64,000 nt of DNA from assembly GCA_021234155.1 (NCBI GenBank), contig JAJEKV010000001.1, positions 23,733,189 through 23,797,188 on the forward strand, written 5' to 3'. This DNA is from Isoetes taiwanensis. Its lineage: Eukaryota; Streptophyta; Lycopodiopsida; Isoetales; Isoetaceae. The notes under the pieces were generated by a model. The model saw only the letters and a list, made by a program, of their open reading frames with translations. It was not told where the DNA came from and searched no databases. Made by a program: the position numbers and the translations under genes. Of the stretch, positions 3,498 through 64,000 are shown piece after piece. How positions within the stretch are numbered: position 1 is the stretch's first letter; each line of letters begins with the position of its first letter.

Positions 3498-5405
3498 ATG
3501 AGAACCAAGGCGAGCACCTCAGGCCCACAATTTAGTAAGGAAGATGACGAATGGAACCACATCTTCTGGTTGGATAGCAAGAACGATAAAGCCTGGGGGA
3601 TACTGAAAGAATTGTTTATGGGGATGGAGATCATAAAGGATCAGCAGAAGGCAGCAGCCTTCTGTATGGGAGTGCATGAGGATGTTGGCATTCTGGCATG
3701 CAAGGAAAAAATGGAGGTTATTAACAGAGACTATTTGAATGGGAGAGTCAACGATAGGGACTGGGTCTGGAACACATTTGGATACCTGCAAGAATTAGAC
3801 AACACCCTTTACAAGCTTATCACAGTGAAGCAGGGACACACTAAAACGGACTGTTGTAGCCTCAAGAACATCATTTTCAGGGCTTACATGGATGAGATGC
3901 TGGCGAAGGTTAAGAACCTAATCATTCAGTGGGATGGGATAAGGGAAAGCTCTAATGCAAGTATCAGGCTCATTAGAAGGTGGGAAGAAGCAGAAGACCA
4001 TGTGATCAAGAGGCATCGGAAAATCTTTAGGCAAGGACTGGTCCTGAACGAGCCACTGGAAGGGGTATCTACATCCCTAGAAGTTTATCAGATAAAGGGG
4101 AAGAAATCGGCAAAATGCAAGATCAAAGATTCAAACGGATTTTTCAACCCAGAAGAATTAAATGAATGCGACTGTGGGGATTGCATGGAAGTCAAGCTCT
4201 CGGCGCTGAATGTGCCGAAAACGAAGATTGGAGTAAACAAAATCAGCAACTCGGTTCCGGTGGTCGGCAAAAATGATAAAACAAAAGGTCCATCTCCTTC
4301 CCCTTCATATAAAAATATTCTTATGAATGATGGCCTTTCTGCTCCTCGGCCGACTAACTTAGAGAATCAGAATGCAGTCGGTAGCGACTTTATAGATTTA
4401 TTTGGTATTCTGGACTCCTCTGCAACTGACATGTTTACCAAGAATGCTATTTTAGTGCACTTCTCGCGGGCCTGCCCAAATCAAGGGGAGGTCAAGAATT
4501 GGATAACCAAATCCCAGCATATTCCTATTCTTTCTATTCTCAAGCTGGATAAGAAGACCTATCAAATTGTATGCAGAGATGAGGTTTGTGTTAAGCAAAT
4601 TCTAAGAAGAAAATTGGATTTCATTAACAATGCTCCTTTTTATATCATGAATTGGTCCCCTTATTTCATCCCAGGCTCGGAGAAGGAAATTCAAACGTCT
4701 ACTTGGCTATCCTTCCCGAATCTCCCCCCGGCCTTTTGGACTCGATCTCATCTGTATACTCTCTGTGAACCTTTAGGGGAGGTCCTCGAAATTAATATCC
4801 CCCAAACTAACTTCCCCACGGTTTGCATTGCCAAGAAAATTACTTCAGATTGGAAAAAGAAGATAAAGATCAGAGTCAAGGCTGATGAATTCATGGACCT
4901 CACCATTAATTACTCCAAATGGCCAATCTATGAACCCGCCTGTGACCCTGTGATAACCCCAAAGCTTAAACAGGTATGGGTTCCTAAGGTCAATGACAAA
5001 GAAAATTCAGGGGTTGAAGTGAGCAATGCGGAATCTGTTAAGAGCTTGGAAACCCAGATCACCCCTAACCAGGGTAGAATTGATGAACTTCCACCCAATG
5101 TAGAAATTCACGACGACATGGTGGTCCTCATCAAAAATATCAACCTGGCTGTGAGAGTTGACTCGGGCAATTTTATCTTCTCTTTCCCTGATTTTTCTAA
5201 CCCCATTCAGAAGGAAGATGACACGGTTTCACGGACGGGAAATCAGGGTATTGGGAATACCCCCGACTCAGAAGACAAGGTATGGACCACAGTGAACAGA
5301 AAAAAGGGCAGAGGTAAGAAGAAATTTAATTTTAGCCCCAGTAGATCTAGTCCAAGAAAGCTGACCATCCAAGCAAGGATGGCTTCAGGGAAGTATAAGT
5401 TTTAA
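3498..5405 (+). CDS. L1 ORF1, Gag-like RNA-binding protein (DUF4283-like)
   Basis: This is an intact 635-residue first ORF. In plant L1 elements this protein binds the element RNA in cytoplasmic particles. The middle part, around residues 300-490, resembles the DUF4283 Gag-like domain of plant LINEs and includes the motif NWSPYFIPGSEKE followed by a WLSFPNLPPAFW stretch. A short cysteine group (CDCGDC) lies near residue 225, and the C-terminus is very basic (KKGRGKKKF). No stop or frameshift breaks it. The stop codon overlaps the ORF2 start as TAATG at 5403-5407, which suggests translation of ORF2 by termination-reinitiation. Confidence 0.85.
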   Translation: MRTKASTSGPQFSKEDDEWNHIFWLDSKNDKAWGILKELFMGMEIIKDQQKAAAFCMGVHEDVGILACKEKMEVINRDYLNGRVNDRDWVWNTFGYLQELDNTLYKLITVKQGHTKTDCCSLKNIIFRAYMDEMLAKVKNLIIQWDGIRESSNASIRLIRRWEEAEDHVIKRHRKIFRQGLVLNEPLEGVSTSLEVYQIKGKKSAKCKIKDSNGFFNPEELNECDCGDCMEVKLSALNVPKTKIGVNKISNSVPVVGKNDKTKGPSPSPSYKNILMNDGLSAPRPTNLENQNAVGSDFIDLFGILDSSATDMFTKNAILVHFSRACPNQGEVKNWITKSQHIPILSILKLDKKTYQIVCRDEVCVKQILRRKLDFINNAPFYIMNWSPYFIPGSEKEIQTSTWLSFPNLPPAFWTRSHLYTLCEPLGEVLEINIPQTNFPTVCIAKKITSDWKKKIKIRVKADEFMDLTINYSKWPIYEPACDPVITPKLKQVWVPKVNDKENSGVEVSNAESVKSLETQITPNQGRIDELPPNVEIHDDMVVLIKNINLAVRVDSGNFIFSFPDFSNPIQKEDDTVSRTGNQGIGNTPDSEDKVWTTVNRKKGRGKKKFNFSPSRSSPRKLTIQARMASGKYKF

Positions 5406-8400
5406 TGGATAGAGACATTAACTGTATAACCTGGAATCTCCAGGGTATCAACAATAATATTAAAAGGGAAAGATTGAAGGTTTGTTTCTCATCTCTCAAC
5501 CCTGACTTTTTGTTTATTCAGGAGCATAAACTACATGACTCTGATCATGAAAAAACCATTAGCAAAACTCTTCCTCCTAATTATAGTATTTGGTCTATTC
5601 CTGCTAATGATTCTTCTGCAGGTATTGCTATTGCATGGAAGAACTATTTAAATATTTCTGATATTTATATGATCAACAGTAAAAATGGAAGGTGGTAGAT
5701 CCTCTTGTGTACCATTTATAGGATTAGACTAGCTTTACTAAATATCTATGCTTTTAACAATCCCACTGAGAGAGTGGAAATTTGGACAGGAGTAAAGAAC
5801 AGTCTTGATAATATTGAGTATGATGAATGTATTTTGGGTGGAGATTTCAACATGGTCACTAATAGTTTCATGAGGAACAAGAATTTCAAACCTCTAGGCA
5901 GGAAGGAAAAGGAGGCATTGCTGGAGCTAACAAGGTGCCACAACTTAAATTTAGCCAGAACCAAGCCTGAAGCCTACAGCTGGACTGATAAGAGAATTGA
6001 TCCCACTTTATGCCTCCATGATAGGTATTATCTCTCTGAAAATTTGTGGAATCATAGTAACAGGGTCAACAATTTGGAAGGATACACCCTTTCGGATCAC
6101 TATCCCCAGCAGTTGCGTATCACAGCTACCAATCAGTCTAAGAAAAAGAGGAAAACTTACTTCAAACTTAACACCAGTCTGCTGGATCATGACGAATTTA
6201 TGGACAGACTACAAGAGGTCCTATTTAGATTTCCCAAGCCCACAGGTCACTCGGGTTGGATGTTCTGGTGGATTCAAGTTGCTAAGGCAATCAAGAACTG
6301 GCTCAAGGAATGGGGGAAACAGGTACATCTTAATAAACTCTCCTCCTTGCAGAAATTAAGAGACAGCCTGCCCAATCCTCCTGAGGAGGAAAAAGACAAC
6401 ATCAGAGCGGAAATTGAGAAGGAAGAAATCAGGATTGCCGAAGGGTGGAGGCTCAAGGCCAAGATAAGAGAGATTAAGGATGATGAGAGGAGCAGCTCCA
6501 AATACTTCTTTATAAAAGCCAAAGGCAAAATTAAAAAGAATCACATCTTTGAGATAAGAGTGGGGGATGAAGACATCACAAACGAGGACCAGATTAAATT
6601 TGCTGCAGCTAACCACTTCAAGGATATCATGGGAACCAATCAAGACAGCACCCAGGAGAATATGAATAGGTTTATAAACCTCCAGGCAAAGGTAAATATG
6701 GAGGAGAATTCCAGCATTGAGAAGCCCTTCTCCAATGAAGAGTTATTTCATATTGCAAAAGAAATGGAAAAGGGTAAAAGTCCAGGCCCTGATGGGCTCC
6801 CAGTAGAATTTTTTATCAAAACATGGCCTATTTTAGGGGACTACTTTACTAATTTGGCTAATGAGTTCAGGACTGTAAATGCTTGGATGCGAGAATCAAT
6901 ACTAGCTTCATCACGCTCATCCCTAAGACTGATATGCCAACTTCTTTCTCGGATTATAGGCATATTTCTCTAACCAATGTGATTTATAAGATTATTTCAG
7001 GTACAATTGCCAGAAGGCTTAAGTGTGTACTTGAAAGGATCATAAGTACCTCCCAAGCTGCCTACTTAAAGGATAGATTCATCCTTGACAATGTTGTCAC
7101 AGCTATGTTGGGTCTTAATTGGGCCAAGGATACCAAACAAGATATTGCTCTTATCAAGCTGGATATCACCAAAGCTTTCGATACGGTAAGCTGGGGTTTC
7201 TTATTCAATTGTTTCAGGGCATTAGGTTTCTCGGACGAGGTAATTCTCCTCTTCAAAGCCTTACTCTCAAACTCCAGATCTTCTGTTTTAATTAACGGAG
7301 AATGCGGCCCCTTCTTCCCCCTGGGTAAAGCAGGGATGCCCACTAGCTCCATTCCTATTCCTTATTATAATGGAGGCTCTTCATGGTAAGCTAGAAGAAG
7401 CAAAAAGATCTCATGTGATCCAAGGCCTTACCCTTCCTGATAATGGGGAGATGGATCAAATTTTAAATGGACATTTTGCAGATGATACTTTCCTCCTAGT
7501 TTCGATGGACAACAGATCACTTACCAACACTCAAAGCATCTTGGAAGAATTTGGAGTAGCCTCGGGTTGCAAAATCAATCCTCTCAAATCTAAAGTGGTG
7601 GCCAGAGATCAGGTAAAGGGAGAGCAAACAGCTGCTCTCCTGGGTTGTAAGTATATCCTTCCTACTACTGCATCCAAGATTTTAGGAATTCCCTTAGCCC
7701 TTAAAGGTAGTCCTTCAGATATCTGGTCTGATATTATTGAGAAATTTCAAAGGAAGGTTGATAGTCTAAATTCCAAATATATCTCTAAGCAGGGTAGGGC
7801 TATAATTGCAAATTTTGTTATTTCTTCCTCTCATGTTTACCAATCATCTGTCATTCTTGCTCCAAAGAAAGTAACCTCCAAACTACAGAGCATTATTGGG
7901 AGATTCATATCCTGTGGACAGAACAAAAGGTGCTGGACTCCTGTGGCTATGGAGGAATGCTGCAAGAGCAAAAGTATGGGGGGTCTAGGAGTCATGAACA
8001 TAGAGAAGCAGGGGATTGCTCTCGCAGCCAAATATCTGTACAAGGCAGCATTTGATTTGATCAAGCATCCTGTCTCTATTATCATAAGGCATTACTTAAG
8101 CAGATGTCTTTCTTTTGGGTGGAGGAAGCTAAATTTAGTGCTGCCCCATGCTATTTTCTTCCCGATCAAAATCCCGAACTCTATCCCTGGCCTCATCAAG
8201 AAATGGATCAGAGCATGGAATTTAGTTAAGGGGATGTTTTCTTGGAAAGAGGGATTATCCATGGATCAATCTATTTTTTGGAATCCGACTCTCCTTACTA
8301 ATAATTCTTCCTTATGTTTAGCATGCCACTTCCCGGAGCAGGCAAGAATTTGGGGGAGCAGAGGAATTCTCTACATCAGGGATATGTACGATGACCAAGG

Positions 8401-9050
8401 AATTATCCCCTTTCACCTCTCAGCCCTCGAGGGGGAAGGGGGTGAAACTGAGATGCTGTATAATAATATCTGCACATCGCTCTCTCAAGGGACTTGGTCA
8501 GATGATGAGGTTAATTGGAATTATAATGGTATCACAGGATTCAAGGTAAAGAATGCTTACAGATACCTGATGAGAGACCAGAAGCCTTTCCATACACAGC
8601 AAGTGGCAGACAGATGAGGAGAGATGCACTAAGAACCTAAAATTCATGTGGTCGAGCCCAATTCCCCCAAAAGTGAAGTCTTTCATGTGGCAGCTTTGGC
8701 ACAGGGCTCTGGCCACTAATCATAAAAGATATAAGATTCACATGACAGATTCGGATGTATGCCCCAGATGTATCCGTCACAGGGAAGATGAAGAACACCT
8801 ATTTAAATATTGTCTCTGGTCGGAATGGGTCCTCGAGCTTGCATCTAATATCTTTGGATATAACCTTAACACGGTTGACCCGCTGGAGTTCTTTATGCCG
8901 AATAATCCTATCGATTGGAGGATCTATATCCTTCTTTGGCGTATCTGGAAGGGGAGAAATAATTTTATCTTTAATTGTGATATAACTCACCCGGAGGCTA
9001 TTATCAAACAAGTTCAATACGACATCAAATGGATTTTGGCTACTCTATAG
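5405..9050 (+). pseudogene. L1 ORF2: AP endonuclease + reverse transcriptase + zinc finger, disabled
   Basis: ORF2 starts at the ATG overlapping the ORF1 stop. The endonuclease shows ITWNLQG, IQEHK, GGDFN and SDHYP. Reverse-transcriptase signatures include GKSPGPDG near 6775-6800, KLDITKAFDTVSW near 7160-7195 and the catalytic FADD at 7475-7486. The C-terminus at 8646-9050 carries the plant zf-RVT motif (CPRC...H...C). Four lesions are visible: an in-frame TAG at 5696-5698, a net one-base loss near 6870-6885, a net one-base gain in the G-run at 7333-7335, and a frame change near 8600. No plant-type RNase H domain is seen. The copy cannot make a full ORF2 protein. Confidence 0.93.
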
Positions 9051-10175: not shown

Positions 10176-10195
10176 TATATCAAACGTCCACGTCG

Positions 10196-10401
10196 CAAAA
10201 ATCGCGTACGTTCCTATGGCGTCGCACAAAATTTAAACGACGTCGCAGATAGAACGTCCCACGTCGCAGTTGGAACGTCTGGTCAGACGTCGCAATGGCA
10301 AAAATTGAGTACGTTCCTACGACGTTGCACAAAATTCAAACCACGTCGCAGGTAGAACGTCAAACGTCACAGTTGGAACGTCTGGCCAGACGTCGCAATG
10401 G
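10196..10401. repeat. 103-bp tandem duplication of CACTA subterminal array
   Basis: Units at 10196-10298 and 10299-10401 align along their whole length with scattered substitutions. Each contains several ACGTCGCA or variant motifs, so the duplication doubled the number of putative transposase-binding sites on that side. Confidence 0.85.
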
Positions 10402-10534
10402 CCTACTACGTGCCACGCCGCACTAGCGACGTATCACGTCGCAAGTGCAACGTCATTACAACGTGAAACGTCGCAACTGCAACGTCTCATTGCGATTTAA
10501 AGAATAAACACGGAATAAATACAAATACTAGTTA

Positions 10535-10865: not shown

Positions 10866-12120
10866 CATCATAATTCGAATTCAATAGCAATGTATCGTTC
10901 GTGTCTAATATTATGACAATAATACGAATTCAATAGCAATGTACAATCGTATTAGGTAGTCGATGAAAATGATTTTGTAGCAATATGGTATGATATGTGG
11001 CGTGACGTTAAAATCTCTTCTTCTTCTTCTTCTTCTATTAATTTTATTTATGTTGTGATTGTTCAAAATTGTTCAATTTAGACGTGCCTAGGGTAAGAAA
11101 AATATAAACCAAAATTCTGCAACAAAAGCACTGTATTCTATTAACAAAAGGGGGAAAGAAAAGCAAAAAATCTTAAATTTCCAATGATAATTTATATTTT
11201 GAGTATACATACCATGGTTGCTAAATTAATGAAATTGATTAATAAAATTAAAGGCATTTATATATACTACAGACTGTACGAGCATTGAACATGAGGTTCT
11301 AGACCCTTGCATCAGCATACTTAGATAAAAACGTGCATAAGACCTAGTGGTTAAAAAAGGTGCTCCAAAATTACATGAACCCGCTGAAAATTTTCCTTGC
11401 CGTAAGATGCCACCAGATGAGAAGTATCAGATGATGTTCATTTTCAAACATGCCTTCGAAATATGTTCAAGGAAAGATATGAATGCCTGGAAAGATGCTG
11501 CAGAACACCCAGCTAAGCAAGCAGCCTTCCCAAATGTGATGCCTACTTCTCTAACTCTTACAAGAGGCACACAACAATCTAACATATGATGCTTTGATAT
11601 TGTTCTGGAAGTGTAGCTATGTAAATAAAATAAAGTATTGACTGCAAACACAATTATGAATAAACAAAACTTGTCATATAATACCTTCTGTTAACCACCT
11701 AATGGTTAACATTGTGCACATGCTAGGTGTTAGTGGTGGCAGACTACACTTGGCATGTTTAGGTTAACATAAGTGTAGGGCTTAGATTTAGCTAGATGTA
11801 GGGCTCAGATTTGTGGTCTACACTAACTATATTATGTCAGAGCCTCTTCAGATGTACTCAAGTTTTATTTCAAGTTTGGAGAGCCTCATTTGGCGCATGT
11901 TTCCTTCACTCTTTGTACATATTTGTTTTCCTTGTTCTTATTTTGTGGTAATGAGCATGGCAGCTTTGTAGCATCTGGCAGTCATAGACTGCTGCTGCAT
12001 GGTGTATGCCAAGAACTCACAATTAACAGTGGCGCCATTATGCCGGGGTCGCTCGTGATCACTTTCTTCAGCCTTATTGTTTTGCTGTTGTCCTTGCTGC
12101 TCTTACCATCATCAGTTCTT
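10866..12120. other. Intergenic, no gene recognised
   Basis: AT-rich sequence with a (CTT)n microsatellite at about 11014-11036. Open frames near 11347 and 11890 have no recognisable domain. The latter runs through a LINE tail and is not credible. Confidence 0.5.
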
Positions 12121-12240
12121 TCGAGGCAGGGGTTTTTTAATCCTAGTAGTAATGATTGTACTAGCCCATTGTATGGGTCCCATGACCTATTGGTCTCCGT
12201 GGACGTTAAAAAAACTATTCTATTCTATTCTATTCTATTC
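12121..12240 (+). mobile_element. Solo LINE 3' end (second family), plus strand
   Basis: The order is CAGGGGTTTTTTAATCC (right part of the structured module), then the terminal hairpin GTCC-GACC-GGTC-GGAC at 12177-12204, then GTTAAAA, then a (TATTC)n tail. This matches in sense orientation the 3' end of the LINE at 54.8-57.6 kb and its relatives. The copy is heavily 5'-truncated. Confidence 0.85.
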
Positions 12241-15165: not shown

Positions 15166-15866
15166 ACCATGATATATAGAAATTTGTGTCCCCATCAGGA
15201 TAGAAACAGCACCACCCACAAAAAATAGTCCAAGAGAAACTCATGTCACAAAATTGCAATGGAGTGCTAAACGCAATATTTGGCACATCCCGACATAGCT
15301 AAATAGCAAATATGATAAATAATGATAGCACAATGCACGATGATATCCCAATACACTGTGAACAAAGAGCTCAACGGCTAGCTAGAAATGAATTCCCTGG
15401 CAAATGATGCATAAGGATAGCATAATGCACAATGCACAATGATAGCACAATTTACAGTGAAAAAAGATCTCAACAACCAGCTAGAAAGGAATTCCCCAAG
15501 ACAACTAGAATGAGGCAGGACGAGCACCCTGCACAAAAATAAAATGCGCCCAAGATAAGACCCCATGCACAATAACTCAATATATGCCACATCTAGAGAA
15601 AGATAAGCATCAAAAAGAAAAAATAATCTACTAGAAACCCATGTCACAAAATTGCAAAGGAGGGCCAAACGCAATACTTAGCACATCCGGACACAGCCAA
15701 ATATGCAAATGTGTAGAATGTCGGGATGTGCCAAATATTGCGACCCCTCTCTATTCTTCCAAAAACATTGTATACTGCTGCTGTGATGAATGACAAGCCT
15801 GACCATAGGAACAATATCGGACTACCCCGTAAAAAGAAATGTGCACAGGCAATATAGAAGGATAAT

Positions 15867-15943
15867 GGCGACAACTTCTCATCGGGATAAAAAACCCCGC
15901 CCTTTCGGGTTTTCGAGGAAAACCCTAATGAGAAATGGTCGCC
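15867..15943 (-). repeat. Three-arm hairpin module, solo copy A
   Basis: The outer arms 15867-15882 and 15928-15943 pair over 14 of 16 positions (GGCGAC and TTCTCAT with their complements). Inside, read on the minus strand, are GGGTTTT-CCTCG-AAAACCC, then CCC-GAAA-GGG, then GGGGTTTTTT. The middle arm can pair with either neighbour. No LINE tail accompanies this copy. Confidence 0.85.
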
Positions 15944-16205
15944 AACAACCTTGAATGTGTTGCCTGGAAAACCGAAGGAGATGGGTTGATGGCGAACACA
16001 AATATAGCAGGACCCCAGAAGACGGCGGAAACCTGCAAGCAACACAACGAACCCCTAAAAAACACCCGTGAATGGTGAGAGAAAAGCAAACTCATGCCCC
16101 TACACAGCAGGGCGGGAAGGGAGGGAAGCAACGAGAATAGAAGAAGAGTTGTTGTGAGAAGACGCCGATAGCCGGCCCGAAAGAGGAAATGGCCTTATAT
16201 AGTAG

Positions 16206-16905: not shown

Positions 16906-17118
16906 CCCATCCTCCCTTAATGTGTATATGATTATAAATGTTGTTTTTTGTTGCGTGGCACGCGTGACTAGCCCCTCACTTTGGTTCTTTTTGTTGGTGA
17001 TATGCAGGTTCAGGGGTGATGCGCGACTTCGGTATTCTCTGTGGAACGTGAAACTTCTTTTTTTTTTTTTTTTTTTTTTGTAGGAACATTTAGCAGCCTT
17101 GCGTTGTCCAAGCCCCTT

Positions 17119-17197
17119 GTCGAGATCTTATTGCTAGGGGTTTTCCTCGAAAACCCGAAAGGACGGGGTTTTTTAATCCCGGCGATAAGCACTCGGC
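17119..17197 (+). repeat. Three-arm hairpin module, solo copy B
   Basis: The outer arms 17119-17134 and 17182-17197 pair at 12 of 16 positions, with further G-U-type pairs, around a core containing GGGGTTTTCCTCGAAAACCC and GGGGTTTTTTAATCCC. The orientation is opposite to copy A. Confidence 0.85.
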
Positions 17198-17384
17198 AGG
17201 ATCTGTAGCAAACAATTTTATTTGGGGTCCAGGTGTTATAACAGGATATTCCATATGTTCTTCATTTTTTGGGTAGCTTGTGATGTGCATTTACCAACTC
17301 TATACCATTGTAGAAAACTGCCGAGATGAATGAAAAGTCTAGTTAGCGGGAGCTTTTGTATGTTTCATGCGAGCCCTAATTTGA

Positions 17385-23975: not shown

Positions 23976-24145
23976 AGAATAGAATAGAATAGAATAGAAT
24001 ATGTTTTATCGTCGACGAAGACCAACTGACCTATGGGACCCAAACAAAAAGAGAGCAGCAAGCATATTATTTATCAGGATTAAAAAACCCCTGCCCCAAA
24101 GGGTTTTCGAGGGAAAAACCTTAGCAGTAATAAGGATGCTGGTAC
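23976..24145 (-). mobile_element. Solo LINE 3' end (second family) with module D
   Basis: Read on the minus strand: three-arm module (outer arms within 24056-24143, CCC-TTTG-GGG small hairpin), then a terminal hairpin region at 24011-24039, then GATAAAACATATTC and an (ATTCT)n tail at 23976-24001. The inner stem of the terminal hairpin is mutated here. No LINE coding sequence is attached. Confidence 0.87.
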
Positions 24146-26324: not shown

Positions 26325-26407
26325 TAGTGAGACCATTATGGCCGGGATTAAAAAACCTCGCCCTTTCGGGTTTTCGAGGAAAAACCCTGACAATAATGGT
26401 ATCACTA
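26325..26407 (-). repeat. Three-arm hairpin module, solo copy C
   Basis: The outer arms 26325-26339 and 26393-26407 pair at 14 of 15 positions (TAGTGAGACCATTAT and its complement). The core has the same three arms and CCC-GAAA-GGG hairpin as copy A. No LINE tail or coding sequence adjoins it. Confidence 0.87.
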
Positions 26408-54782: not shown

Positions 54783-57617
54783 TAGAATATAATAGAATAG
54801 AAAAAAACCCCCTCCCCGCCCTAAAGGGTTGTTTGGGGGAAAAACCGTGACAGGAATAGTTTTGCTGTCAAACTATACAAATACAAATACAAATATAGAC
54901 AGAAATATGTACATGTATCAGGTAAGTGCCCGAGGACTGAGCTGATCTCGGTGATCCATGATCTCTTGAATGTATGAGCCCAACCTCCGTACCGAGCTCG
55001 TGCTCAGCATCTCATGCAGGGGCTGGTTAGGACGGACCAGCTCAGCATAACGTATCCGAATATCATCATATGCCGGACAACTCTGAAGGGTGTGGCATTC
55101 GTCTTCCACAGCTCCAACCTGGCAGCGTTGACAAAGCCTCTCCTGACGCAGCTCCCCAACCCATCTCCATGTCTCAATCCAGAGATGGTGTGCGCCTGTG
55201 CGGATAGAGGCAATGGATCTGTGCTTTTTCATGGGTAGATGAGTATGCATATAGCATTGCGGGGCCCGTTCCAACATGGGATTTATGCGGCGTTGCCATT
55301 TTGACCTGTTCAAGGGTGCTGGCGTCGCATAGCTTATTGAGGAAGCATGCATCAAGGTACTGTCTCAGACTGCGGCGATCTGCCTCTGTTTGCACTTGGA
55401 TGCACCTGTGCTCCTGCACATTCCATCTGGCCAGCCACTGAGCTCTCTTTTCCTGCCAGCAGGCTTTTGGGCGTTGAGGCCCCATTGCCATAGTATAAGC
55501 GAGGTTAGGGAGACGAGTATCGTCCATGCTGACCACCTTCTGGAAGTAGACGATATGTCTGTGAAGGGCTCTTTGAAGAGGCAAGAAACCTGTTTCCTGC
55601 AACAGTATCTAGTATGGGGCTGTAGACTTCACCCCCAGGGCCCATGCGAAGAAAGCTTTTTGCACCTGCTCCAAGTCATTCCAAGTGGCGAGGGAAATCA
55701 CCGGGCCCCAGACCTCGACCTCGTACAAAAGCACAGGTTCTACTAGCACCTTGAGAAGGTGCGATTAGTGGGCCCAATCATATACCTCTGCCTTGTGGCT
55801 ATTGTACTCCATTGCATAGAGTGCCATCCAACTTGCTGTGGCTCGCAGCCGGATTGAATTGTCCCAGGTTATGGCCAACGAGAACTCCACCTCCAAATAT
55901 TTGTAAGCGGACACCACCTCGACATTTTGGCCACGATAAATGAGGATTGGAGGCCTTGGCTGGCGTGCGAACGATACCTGAACTACCTTGGTTTTGGCTA
56001 AGTTGATGTGCATGTCAGTCACCTGGCAAAATGTGTCCAGGGCATCGAAATGGCATTGCATGTCTGCCTGAGTGTATGCTAAGAGGTCCACATCGTCAGC
56101 ATAGATCAGCTGCCTGATGATCTGATGTAGGAGATGAGCTCCAACGCCTCCATTATCAGCGAGCCATCTCTTCAGTTGATCAATATACAGGCCAAATAGT
56201 ATGGAAGAGAGCATCCCTGGCGGACCTCGATACTGCTCTCGAATGGTTGGCCCACTGGTTGCAGCCGGCCGGTGCATGTCTCATATAACCTGTACACTGC
56301 ATTCTGCAGTTCGACAGGGACGTCTAGCTGTTGCAATCTTGCCCATAGCTTTTCCTGTGACATAGTGTCAAAAGCCTTGGCAAAGTCTACGAAGCAGCAA
56401 TACAGATCTTGTTGACGGTTCCTGTTGTCCTTAACCAGAGTCCGCAGCGTGAAGATATGATCTATAGTTGAGTGCCTCGGCCTGAATCCTGTCTGTGTAA
56501 GTGCCCCACTTTTGTTGCCTCTGCCCATCCTGTCAACTACCGCTCGAAGATCCCGGCGAGGAGCTTTGCAAACACTGAACTGATCATGATGGTCCAGTAA
56601 TTGGCCGGGCAATGCATGTCTCCTGCCTTGTAGATTGGGACAACCCTGCTAGTGGTCCATTGCGGGGGAAAACCTTCCTGCAATACCTTGTTGAACATGT
56701 CGGTCAGTACCGGTGCCATGGATGGTCCTGCCCACTTGAGTAACTCTGCGTCCATGCCATCAAGGTCTGGTGCTTTTCCATTGGCTAGACGTTGCAGCCC
56801 CTGCAGTACCTCCGCCTCTGTGATTTCCAGTACTGTGTCCTGCTGGAGGGGTAATGCTGCCCATGCACCCTCAGGGTTGTAGAGCTGCTGTAGATATTGC
56901 CCCCACTGGTCTGGAGTGATGTTTCCTGTGGGCGGCACTGGCCTCCTGAGCACTCTCTGCCAGAAGGTCCTGGGATGACATTCCAGGAGGAAGAACATTT
57001 CCTGTTGATGTGCCGCAATGTACCTGGCCTTTCTAGCCTTAAGGAAAGTGCGGTATTGCTTGACTGCATTCGAGCCTAGAGCAGGGTTTGTGACTTGGTG
57101 GAGCCAACGTTTGCCTTCTTTGCACTTGGCATTGGACCACTGGTTACGTGGAAAGGCCGTAGCTCTCGAGGTTTGCCGGGGGCGACTTCTCCCAAAACAC
57201 CTCTCTGCAGCAGCCCCGAGGACGTCAATGAGTCTGCCTGCCTACTGTTCTAGCGTTGAGCATTGTGAGATGCTTGTCAGATCCTCCGTAAGCATCTGGG
57301 AGTAAGTAGGAGCGCGCTCATAGTCTAGTCTGAGCTGGGGCATACGAGGAGGTGTTGGACAAGCGTCTGGAGCAACCTGCCAAGCCAGCTGCAAGTAGAG
57401 CGGCAGGTGGTCTGAGTCCACCTCCTCATCCCTACCAGCTGTTCCCACTCAAAAATGTTTGACGAGATGCATGTCCTGCTCGGCCACCAAAACATAGTCT
57501 ACTACGCTGGACCCACCTCCCTGATTCTCCTGCCTGCAAGTGTGCTAGCTGGAGGACGGCCACTGTGCTGGTCCATTGCAAATCACTAGGTCAAAGATAC
57601 TGCAGAGCAGCAACACA
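54783..57617 (-). mobile_element. 5'-truncated second-family LINE: endonuclease-RT-zinc finger
   Basis: On the minus strand the element starts inside the AP-endonuclease (FDLVICNGPAQWP, then SSVVDYVL and SDHLPL). It continues with NGKAPDLDGMDAELLKWAG, VDFAKAFDTM, the catalytic YADD at about 56092-56103, and a C-terminal zinc-finger (CQRCQ...H...C) near 55085-55120. It ends at the stop near 54918. Frameshifts near 57440, 56600, 56215 and 55350 plus internal stops disable it. Module F (about 54800-54854) and a (TTCTA)n tail form the 3' end. GGAATAA at 54772-54778 and 57618-57624 may be a short target duplication. The RT is not plant-L1-like; the clade is uncertain (I/Jockey-like at best). Confidence 0.92.
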
Positions 57618-59080: not shown

Positions 59081-59210
59081 GCAGGGGGTTTGATTCGGCC
59101 AGTCTTGCTAGTTAGCACAACCTATTGAGGCGGTGGAGCAGGACAGCAGGGGGTTTAATTCGGCCAGTCTTGCTTCTTAGCACAACCTATTGAGGCGGTG
59201 GAGCAGGACA
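59081..59210. repeat. 65-bp tandem pair
   Basis: Units 59081-59145 and 59146-59210 start with GCAGGGGGTTT and end with GGTGGAGCAGGACA. They differ at only a few bases. Confidence 0.95.
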
Positions 59211-59779
59211 GTAACATTGACTTGGAAACCATTGGTACCAAATCATATGCTGACATGAAAATGAATATTTGACCCCATCAAGGGATCAACGGACGGCTAT
59301 GGTGTCTCCAATTGGAATCAAAGATGGAATATTCATAAGATCAATGGTCCACATTAAGCGATAATACAAAATAAGCGATAATACAAAATAAGAATGATAA
59401 GGTGTGCAAATCAATCATAAGAGATAAGGAGGACAACCAAATATTGTGCAAATCAAACACAGATTGTGCTCTTAACTCTTAATGTAATGGCAGAAAATAA
59501 GTCCCTAAAACTTGATGCCTTCCTGCCTGAACTATTTTTATAGTTTTGGTAGGAATTAGAAGATGCTCCCATATTGGAACTACAAGGTGCTTAGCATCAT
59601 TGCAATCTACATTCCACGCTTTTCAACTGGTTTCATAGCCTTAAACCCCAAATTTGACAAACCTACAACTTTAGAAGGGTGGAGGCTTGAATTGCGTTTA
59701 CAAACACTACCTATAAGCTAATGGCAAAGCTTGCCTAATACTCAACAAAGTAAAAAGACAGGAACAATCAGCCTTTCTT

Positions 59780-61476: not shown

Positions 61477-62823
61477 TTAATTGACTGCGTATAGGTTTGC
61501 TAGTGATATATAAGCTGCAGCATTTTCTGGGTCCAAGTCAAATGCATGTCCTGCAGCATGTTTGCCCCATTCCACATCTGAGACAATTTTGCATGAACCA
61601 AGCAAAGTTCTCCAAGATGTAGCATCAGGTGCAATTGCCATATTGTTGATCAGAGAATTTGCTTCAGGAAACCACCCTATCCTGCCAAGAAGGTCAATCA
61701 TGCAGCCATAATGCTTCATAGAAGGTGCATTACAGTTGTAATTTGCAATGAATGCAAACCAATGACAACCAACATCCACTAAACCACTGTGGCTACAGGC
61801 AAACAGAATGCTACTAAAGGTCAACCCATTGGGAACAAAACCTTTTATCTGCATTTCCTTGAGCATTTGGAGTGCGTCTTTGCTCCGGCCATGTTGTGCA
61901 TGTGCCGCAATCATGACATTCCAAGACACCACATTTTGCTGTGGCATTTGATTAAAGAGTTGAAGTGCATGATCGAGCTGTCCCCACTTTGCATAACCAT
62001 CAATCATAGTATTCCATGAGACCACATCTTGACAATGCATGTTTACAAAGAGCTGCCAGGCCTCCTTGATGCAGCCGTTCTCCATGTAACCCATTATCAT
62101 GGCATTCCATGAGACAACATTCCGTTTTGGCATTTTTTCAAATAAGAGACATGCATCTGAAAGCTGTCCCATTGTCGCATAAGCAGCAACCAGGGCAGTC
62201 CAAGAAATCACATCTCTCTCAGGCATTTGCTTGAAAAATTTCAAAGCTTTTTGCAAATTTCCCTGCTGAATACAACCTGAGATCATTGTATTCCAAGTGA
62301 CATTATCCCTTGCAGGCATTAGGTCAAAAAATTTGATAGCCTCTTCCAGGCATCCTTGCTTGCAATAACCAGCAATCATGGCATTCCAGGAGACTATATC
62401 ATGCTTTGGCATTTGCTTGAATAGTCCAAGAGCCTCCTTGAGGTGCCCTGCTTGTACATAAACATCAATCATGATATTCCAAGTATACAAATTCTTCTTA
62501 ACCATATTAGAAAATACCTCGAGTGCATCTTTAACTGCTCCACACTTGCCATACATGTTGATAAGAAGATTCTGAATAAATATATCTTGCTCAAACCCTT
62601 TCATTATTATCTCCTGATGAATTTGCCGTCCGTTTCTTACATCCTTACAGCTTTGCAAACGGGAAGCGAGCTCAACTCTGTCTTTGCTTAATGGGCTGTG
62701 TTGGTTTGGAGGCGAAGCTCGGCACATTCTAGAAACTCTGGCTGTTCTGGTTGCAGGAAAATTGCAGCGACTATGATCGTTGCTCAGATAGGAAGTAAAG
62801 AATATGTTGCTTGCTGACGCCAT
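61477..62823 (-). CDS. PLS-type PPR protein, truncated in the E region
   Basis: The 448-residue, intronless protein is a plant organelle RNA-binding PPR protein. The N-terminus (about 45 residues, rich in S, R and A) looks like a transit peptide. After an L-type segment (FIQNLLINMYGKCG), seven consecutive 31-residue S-type repeats start near residues 111, 142, 173, 204, 235, 266 and 297, each with the (D/N)xxxWN pattern. Then follow P2, L2 and S2 repeats and the start of the E motif (AAYISLANLY). A stop then cuts the E motif, so no E2 or DYW deaminase domain follows. It would bind specific organelle transcripts, perhaps for editing with a partner or for processing. It could also be a truncated pseudogene, though the frame is otherwise perfect. 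Confidence 0.92.
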   Translation of the reverse strand: MASASNIFFTSYLSNDHSRCNFPATRTARVSRMCRASPPNQHSPLSKDRVELASRLQSCKDVRNGRQIHQEIIMKGFEQDIFIQNLLINMYGKCGAVKDALEVFSNMVKKNLYTWNIMIDVYVQAGHLKEALGLFKQMPKHDIVSWNAMIAGYCKQGCLEEAIKFFDLMPARDNVTWNTMISGCIQQGNLQKALKFFKQMPERDVISWTALVAAYATMGQLSDACLLFEKMPKRNVVSWNAMIMGYMENGCIKEAWQLFVNMHCQDVVSWNTMIDGYAKWGQLDHALQLFNQMPQQNVVSWNVMIAAHAQHGRSKDALQMLKEMQIKGFVPNGLTFSSILFACSHSGLVDVGCHWFAFIANYNCNAPSMKHYGCMIDLLGRIGWFPEANSLINNMAIAPDATSWRTLLGSCKIVSDVEWGKHAAGHAFDLDPENAAAYISLANLYAVN

Positions 62824-63672: not shown

Positions 63673-64000
63673 GGAAGGAAGGAAGGAAGGAAGGTATTTT
63701 TATCGTCCACGGAGACCAATCGGTCTATGGGACCCAATACAAAAGCGCAACAAGTGGATTACTACCCGGATTAAAAAACCCGCCCCGAAGGGTTTTCGAG
63801 GGAAAAACCGCGGGCGGCAATCGGCCTGGCGACAAACCGCTTCCAATATCTGAAAAATGCAAAACACACAAATATATACACTCATGTACCGTACCCATAG
63901 TGCCTAATCAGCGAGCAGCCAGGCGGGGGCAAAGTTGGGCTCGCAGATCCAGTACCTCCTGCATGTACAACCCTAGACCACGTACTGACGATGTGTTCAT
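63673..64000 (-). mobile_element. Second-family LINE 3' end, continues beyond window
   Basis: Read on the minus strand from the window edge: end of an ORF, stop at 63908-63910, a short 3' UTR, the three-arm module (63757-63822), the terminal hairpin (63705-63733, outer GTCC/GGAC, inner AGACC/GGTCT), GATAAAAATA and a (CCTT)n tail at 63673-63694. It links tail, structured module and coding sequence in one element. Confidence 0.92.
63908..64000 (-). CDS. C-terminus of LINE ORF (partial)
   Basis: The last 30 residues visible begin MNTSSVRGLGLYMQEVLD. They align with the C-terminus of the LINE at 54918-55355 (LSTSSVRRLGSYIQEIMDHR), sharing TSSVR-LG-Y-QE, and end with the stop at 63908-63910. The rest lies outside the window. 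Confidence 0.88.
   Translation of the reverse strand: MNTSSVRGLGLYMQEVLDLRAQLCPRLAAR

Follow-up and report, generated by a model that had tools for sequence, protein, structure and literature searches.

The hairpin module that recurs in the window, meaning the whole 64,000-nucleotide stretch of Isoetes taiwanensis DNA that was analyzed, is probably an ENE-type hairpin (ENE, element for nuclear expression) carried in LINE 3′ UTRs and in related elements, where it would act as an ENE. The module has a common structure with aggregate covariation and two near-invariant U strands, and it lies on a defined strand between the ORF2 stop and the tail of the LINE. By analogy with known ENEs, these features suggest a triple helix that would stabilize the RNA and benefit the element. 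An earlier note made from the letters of the window had described a three-arm hairpin for which its author knew of no described family; its design is instead that of the ENE. ENEs clasp poly(A) or an A-rich tract in a triple helix, for which U tracts and adjacent G-C pairs are needed (PMC11411715, PMC12501189). The ENE of the Arabidopsis retrotransposon Evade is described as pairing with poly(A) and as requiring its U tracts and the neighboring G-C pairs, and its loss leads to lower RNA stability and fewer new insertions (PMC12501189). According to the same source, about 200 ENE motifs, mostly from plants and fungi, were found by Tycowski et al. (2016), and the ENEs of mobile elements show a strong association with LTR retrotransposons (PMC12501189). 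Among the papers listed in the literature searches, it is the one devoted to an ENE in a retrotransposon.

Several of the features that define an ENE recur in the module. A U5/U6 internal loop is near-invariant in 13 representatives, and G-C pairs directly flank the U tracts. The position is near the predicted 3′ end of the transcript, after the ORF2 stop in locus L048 and about 55 nt before the tail in families B1 and B2. A candidate A-rich partner in cis is the run of 4–9 A that precedes the tail in a sample of 60 LINE ends (at least four being required by the search pattern); the copies bear no poly(A). Only one U loop per module is present in the folds, as against the two U-rich loops of a double-domain ENE (dENE). 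Judged from its sequence, the module is thus built like an ENE, and it is a candidate member of that class pending a triple helix.

All six copies reported in the earlier note are present in the window (15867–15943, 17119–17197, 24056–24143, 26325–26407, about 54800–54854 and 63757–63822), and a profile made from them re-detects six of six with E values from 6e-13 to 1e-20. The same window search gave an additional weak, partial match at 12118–12161 (E 0.003); a LINE 3′ end on the plus strand at 12120–12240 comprises a partial hairpin, a small terminal hairpin (12184–12195), an A tract and a (TATTC)5 tail. The transcribed strand is the minus strand in five of the six copies and the plus strand in the 17.1 kb copy, and several apparent mismatches become G·U pairs once read on that strand. 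The outer stems differ between copies and still pair as quoted earlier (TTCTCAT/ATGAGAA, CTTATTGC/GCGATAAG, CATTAT/ATAATG and GATTACTACCC/GGGCGGCAATC), but the 54.8 kb copy has none; there, a (CTATT)n-like tail directly follows the U-rich strand. The tetraloops are likewise as reported when read on the transcribed strand, namely GAAA at 15.9, 17.1 and 26.3 kb and TTCG at 63.7 kb, and the loops of the remaining copies are TTTG at 24.1 kb and TTTA at 54.8 kb.

The covariance model (R1) matches five window copies and not the 54.8 kb copy. The highest scores belong to the A-type copies, which are a family A3 hairpin at 26325–26407 (minus strand, 95.8 bits), an A2-like hairpin at 17117–17199 (plus strand, 86.7 bits) and a hairpin of a further A-type family at 15865–15945 (minus strand, 80.2 bits). 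A B2-like hairpin occupies 24056–24141 (64.7 bits), with its small terminal hairpin at 24019–24032 and a (TATTC)5 microsatellite tail at 23977–24001, all on the minus strand. The decayed hairpin without an outer stem (54790–54867, minus strand, profile E 6.3e-13) terminates a broken LINE, whose frames lie upstream on the same strand at 54918–57241, two of them with RVT_1 matches. The 63.7 kb copy, an ENE-type hairpin of family B1 (63748–63831, 52.5 bits, E 4.6e-10), displays the whole arrangement on the minus strand. It comes after an ORF2-like C-terminus that is cut by the window end (63908–64000; 30 residues and then a stop at 63908–63910). Its 5′ U strand, flanked by G and C (GGTTTTTCCC), lies at 63800–63809, the apical hairpin CCC-TTCG-GGG at 63783–63792 and the 3′ U strand with flanks, GGGTTTTTTAATCC, at 63768–63781. 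Beyond it are the small terminal hairpin AGACC-GATT-GGTCT (63713–63726), a candidate element for recognition by reverse transcriptase (RT), an encoded A5 tract, GATAAAAATACC (63693–63704), as a candidate third strand, and the microsatellite tail (TTCC)5 (63673–63692). The window also holds an open 448-aa frame for a PPR protein with an E motif (61477–62823, minus strand) and a second, L1-like LINE whose frames carry DUF4283, endonuclease and partial RT domains (3498–8617, plus strand), proteins that indicate a plant. Two-copy tandem repeats are present at 10195–10402 (103 bp) and 59081–59211 (65 bp).

Folding of the sense strand gives intact members an outer stem of 16–19 pairs with an invariant bulged A. 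Proceeding inward, the outer stem and the bulged A are followed by a short stem of G-C pairs and by an internal loop in which U5 is opposed to U6+AAU; an upper stem comes next, and above it an AAAA bulge and then CCC-loop-GGG. The G-C pairs adjoin the U tracts as GG-U5-CC and GG-U6-(N)AU-CC, and columns 21–69, 22–68 and 31–55 are G-C or C-G in 43 of 43 aligned rows. The upper stem is CCUCG/CGGGG in the A families and CCCUCG/CGGGGG in the B families, so that the change from A to B adds one C and one G on opposite sides. A families have GAAA as their apical loop, and B families have UUCG. The apical stems of B3 carry U-A in place of two C-G pairs. Families C1 and C2 have a replaced apical part and nevertheless keep the U strands, their G-C flanks and the bulged A (GGGUUUUUCC..GGUUUUUU.AUCCC). 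Family B5 (L068 and window 54790–54867) has a longer apical stem, CCCCC/GGGGG, and L068 carries eight U on the 3′ side. In single-sequence folding against shuffled controls, three of the five window copies tested were far more stable (z −4.3 to −5.7), and the decayed 24.1 and 63.7 kb copies were not (z −1.12 and −0.07).

Regarding abundance, a search of 1,658,258,908 bases in 1110 contigs returned 4,341 exact matches to a strict core pattern and 8,426 to a looser one in which the two U-rich strands and their flanks were fixed, against 0 for the reversed control in both cases, which excludes chance. Forty loci were fetched from 100 listed places of the strict pattern, 20 per core type and roughly in list order, and fell into families A1 (14), A2 (4), A3 (2), B1 (13) and B2 (7), with flanks conserved inside each family. 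The Rfam search proposed in the earlier note found no family at gathering score in the window (Rfam 15), a result that speaks against the ENE reading. For copy L023, Rfam gave sub-threshold matches only; the best of these, a microRNA precursor hairpin, scored 29.7 bits where the gathering score is 100. This weak likeness, together with the stem of 16–19 pairs, would suit a long stem that is diced into small RNAs in the service of host silencing. Such a source of small RNAs would not account for unpaired U strands that hardly vary, for a bulged A that is invariant or for the exchange of stable tetraloops, and we consider it very improbable.

Selection on RNA structure, as proposed in the earlier note, was examined through covariation. 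In a first set of 12 sequences, hand-picked at one or two per family, 94.3% of cells were standard pairs against 80.0±1.4 after column shuffling, two-sided changes occurred in 15 of 30 pairs against 10.3±1.5, and sliding of the partner left at most 50.6% paired. As shuffling and sliding ignore relatedness, a tree-aware null was built, which preserves the FastTree tree and the changing sites per branch in 500 sets. The 13 representatives, also hand-picked at one or two per family, had 90.8% standard pairs against 70.0±3.5% under this null (0/500), which bears out the proposal, and 20 two-sided pairs against 11.7±2.1 (0/500). The count of two-sided pairs in these representatives was reached in 0/500 null sets for all pairs, 0/500 for the outer helix and 29/500 for the apical part. 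The alignment was widened to 43 rows by parsing 65 hits into 39 distinct rows, copies with structural indels or other apical parts remaining unparsed, and by aligning four rows by hand (the window copies at 15867 and 17119, C1 and C2); family B5 (L068 and the 54.8 kb copy) and a few diverged copies were omitted from the tree-aware test. All 43 rows were 89.0% paired against 74.9±2.5 (0/500), and their two-sided count was reached in 15/500 null sets for all pairs, 54/500 for the outer helix and 71/500 for the apical part. Without the rearranged rows L018 and L035, the corresponding figures were 0/500, 7/500 and 96/500. The percentage paired exceeded the tree-aware null in every set (at most 3/500). 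Covariation of individual pairs is weak, with 2 of 31 pairs at E<0.05 in the 43 rows against 2 of 3710 other column pairs. Covariation in the outer stem, which the earlier note had offered as a check, is seen in aggregate among the 13 representatives (0/500) and is weak in single pairs (2/31).

Conservation of letters has a different distribution from conservation of pairing. Among the 13 representatives, U6 is invariant at six of six positions and U5 at four of five, and the majority letter of the outer stem averages 62%; this stem is largely rewritten between families with its pairing kept. On the sense strand, the cells of the 13 representatives comprise 313 Watson-Crick pairs, 41 G·U, 6 A·C and 30 other mismatches. 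The excess of G·U over A·C is expected if the sense-strand RNA is what is kept, although the 41 G·U cells do not amount to 41 events because related families share some of these pairs. An outcome that would overturn its reading, according to the earlier note, is that the copies drifted at random from a single palindromic DNA repeat or satellite, with no selection on RNA. The very high copy number and the mostly non-significant single pairs would be compatible with such drift, but pairing exceeds the tree-aware null (0/500 in aggregate), G·U stands far above A·C on one strand (41 against 6) and the module has a fixed place in LINE 3′ ends, so that drift of this kind is extremely improbable.

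The three-arm description contained in the earlier note is correct in that the arms can pair, GGGUUUU being a possible partner of the AAAACCC arm in families A and B, but this pairing is only an alternative to the covarying fold. It is energetically possible in 11 representatives and is not evolutionarily conserved, as C1 and C2 lack the middle arm. The three-arm fold is 1.3–2.4 kcal/mol better than the ENE-type fold in 6 of 11 representatives (A1, A2, A2b, W15867, W17119 and B3) and 3.1–9.1 kcal/mol worse in the other five (A3, B1, B1b, B2 and B4), in a comparison that leans to the three-arm fold because the ENE-type fold was a fixed structure and the three-arm fold was the best one with the arm enforced. 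A conformational switch, in which AAAACCC pairs with the 5′ U strand or frees it and so regulates translation, packaging or reverse transcription, is possible and could coexist with an ENE, and it would agree with the invariant AAAA of the 11 A and B representatives and with the energies of the six. As the main explanation it is nonetheless improbable: the energies of the other five and the missing arm of C1 and C2 speak against it, the third pair of the middle arm is mismatched in B1, B1b, B2 and B4, and a switch between the folds is unsupported by covariation.

The carriers of the ENE-type hairpin are LINE 3′ UTRs and related elements. The location in a LINE 3′ UTR suggested earlier is supported by a hairpin that stands between the ORF2 stop and the tail. 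A 740-aa open frame with an RVT_1 domain (2.6e-30) was found in L048, a B2 locus; of the solved structures, those that it matches best are reverse transcriptases of the R2 and LINE-1 types (10 sequences, E<0.001), and an NCBIfam scan gave only a sub-threshold match, of this frame to a group II intron RT. The L048 hairpin (157–241) starts 27 nt past the stop of the RT frame (269). Of 20 B1/B2 copies, 19 have a tail that resembles (TTCC)n or (TATTC)n, typically about 55 nt beyond the outer stem, the other copy (L032) being rearranged with no tail seen. Genome searches with RVT_1 and with 4 kb around a B1 copy returned matches dominated by other repeats.

The A-type elements share the hairpin and lack the microsatellite tail. 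A1 copies belong to an element of about 1 kb, which at L046:5909–6943 and L047:2919–3883 consists of two tandem units sharing a 184-bp head and a 45-bp tail, with the hairpin of L046 in the second unit only. The head is rich in short palindromes, and the 3′ end reads ..CCCATTCTAGAAT without poly(A). At G000:C963:11935377–11938061, three A1-type elements lie head to tail, about 1.02 kb apart. The longest frame of the A1 element at L041, among frames of at least 120 aa, has 150 aa and no Pfam match. For ten stop-to-stop frames from L041–L045 and the window, Pfam returned two matches at E<0.1, neither of which reached the cut-off. Two other origins were considered and rejected. Insertion into pre-existing palindromes was dismissed, since within each family the stem is conserved jointly with its flanks. 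A SINE with a LINE tail, suspected from L056 and L057, was discarded since the upstream part is low-copy: a query with it gave 49 matches and covered its full 171 bases only at its own place.

In order to avoid picking by U loops, LINE 3′ ends were also sampled by their terminus. The terminus pattern GGYCTCCGTGGACNNTAAAA has 11,868 matches in the genome against 0 for the control, and the first 60 of 100 listed matches were taken, some of which overlap the first 40 loci (e.g., L061 and L011). Model R1 places a sense-strand hairpin at E<0.01 in 39 of these 60 LINE ends and, more weakly, in L081 (E 0.016) and L063 (E 0.054), the best antisense match being at E 0.012. In the other 19, LINE similarity is lost before or inside the hairpin as judged by eye, as expected of 5′-truncated copies. 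Of the 60 ends, 36 have a (TATTC)n tail, 21 a (TTCC)n tail and 3 a tail of another kind. Most of the 60 ends carry a small hairpin just before the tail, AGACC..GGTCT or AGGCC..GGCCT with intermediates and in some cases with a UCU loop, and this hairpin is followed by CCGTGGAC and the A run described above.

This arrangement bears on the role of each hairpin at the 3′ end. Stringent LINEs are recognized through a 3′ stem-loop (PMC4176376, PMC3747384), and the large hairpin, lying in a 3′ UTR next to ORF2, might by the same precedent serve mainly as the RNA signal by which the ORF2 protein starts target-primed reverse transcription. We regard this role as unlikely, though less so than the switch. 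The site before the tail that stringent LINEs use is occupied by the small hairpin, which shows paired variation of its own (AGACC/GGTCT and AGGCC/GGCCT); the large hairpin fixes two opposed U tracts and not its hairpin loop, which may be GAAA, UUCG or others; and A-type elements share it without a microsatellite tail. A structured LINE 3′ end is a likeness to the stringent-type ZfL2 and to the monocot L1 lineage as described (PMC4176376, PMC3747384), and it is the small terminal hairpin that fits the stringent type, adjoining non-poly(A) terminal repeats and in some copies having a UCU loop as in monocots (PMC3747384, PMC4176376). In contrast to the hairpins described for that type, the large one contains an internal loop of U and does not adjoin the tail. 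On position and sequence, the small terminal hairpin is thus the better candidate for RT recognition, and its resemblance to the stringent-type hairpins makes the two jobs appear split, RNA protection lying with the large hairpin and RT recognition with the small one.

In the mechanism proposed for the ENE-type hairpin, the long outer stem would hold up the U5/U6 loop, which G-C pairs would clamp on both sides and the second stem would cap. The two U strands would then grip an A strand as a U·A-U triple helix in the LINE RNA, and this helix would protect the RNA. Protection of this kind is held to be the role of the module as it has the sequence features of the ENE design. The A strand may come from a poly(A) tail on the transcript or from the A run that the LINE encodes at its own 3′ end; this partner is uncertain, since the tails of the LINE copies are (TTCC)n or (TATTC)n and not poly(A). 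Among the described systems, the ENE of Copia93/Evade is similar in being a stem-loop in the 3′ UTR of a plant retrotransposon, with G-C pairs on either side of a U-rich internal loop (PMC12501189). Copia93/Evade is described as an LTR/Copia element with poly(A) RNA and four U-rich tracts (PMC12501189), whereas the carriers here are LINEs with microsatellite tails, one 5+6 U loop and an outer stem that is long and rewritten, and they number thousands of copies. The 3′ ends of MALAT1 and MEN-beta also have a stem-loop whose internal loop is U-rich and which precedes an encoded A-rich tract, but they belong to human non-coding RNAs, are generated by RNase P at a tRNA-like structure and, in MALAT1, form a longer triplex of nine U·A-U triples (PMC11411715, PMC10855403). 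The rice hAT transposon TWIFB1 is likewise a plant mobile element with an ENE, described as a double-domain dENE (PMC10855403), as opposed to the one U loop of the present module. A more speculative extension, to which we give a low but appreciable probability, is that a LINE superfamily without genomic poly(A) uses its ENE to clamp its own encoded 3′ A tract in the manner of MALAT1. The AAAACCC arm of the A and B families would then toggle the U loop between a closed three-arm state and an open, tail-gripping one, thereby switching between RNA protection and reverse transcription.

If the ENE reading is true, thousands of LINE-borne copies would constitute a natural experiment in which stems have been rewritten repeatedly around nearly fixed U strands. 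It would separate two jobs of the LINE 3′ UTR that are usually confounded, namely survival of the RNA and recognition by the reverse transcriptase. It would also raise the question of what the triple helix grips when the genomic copies show no poly(A).
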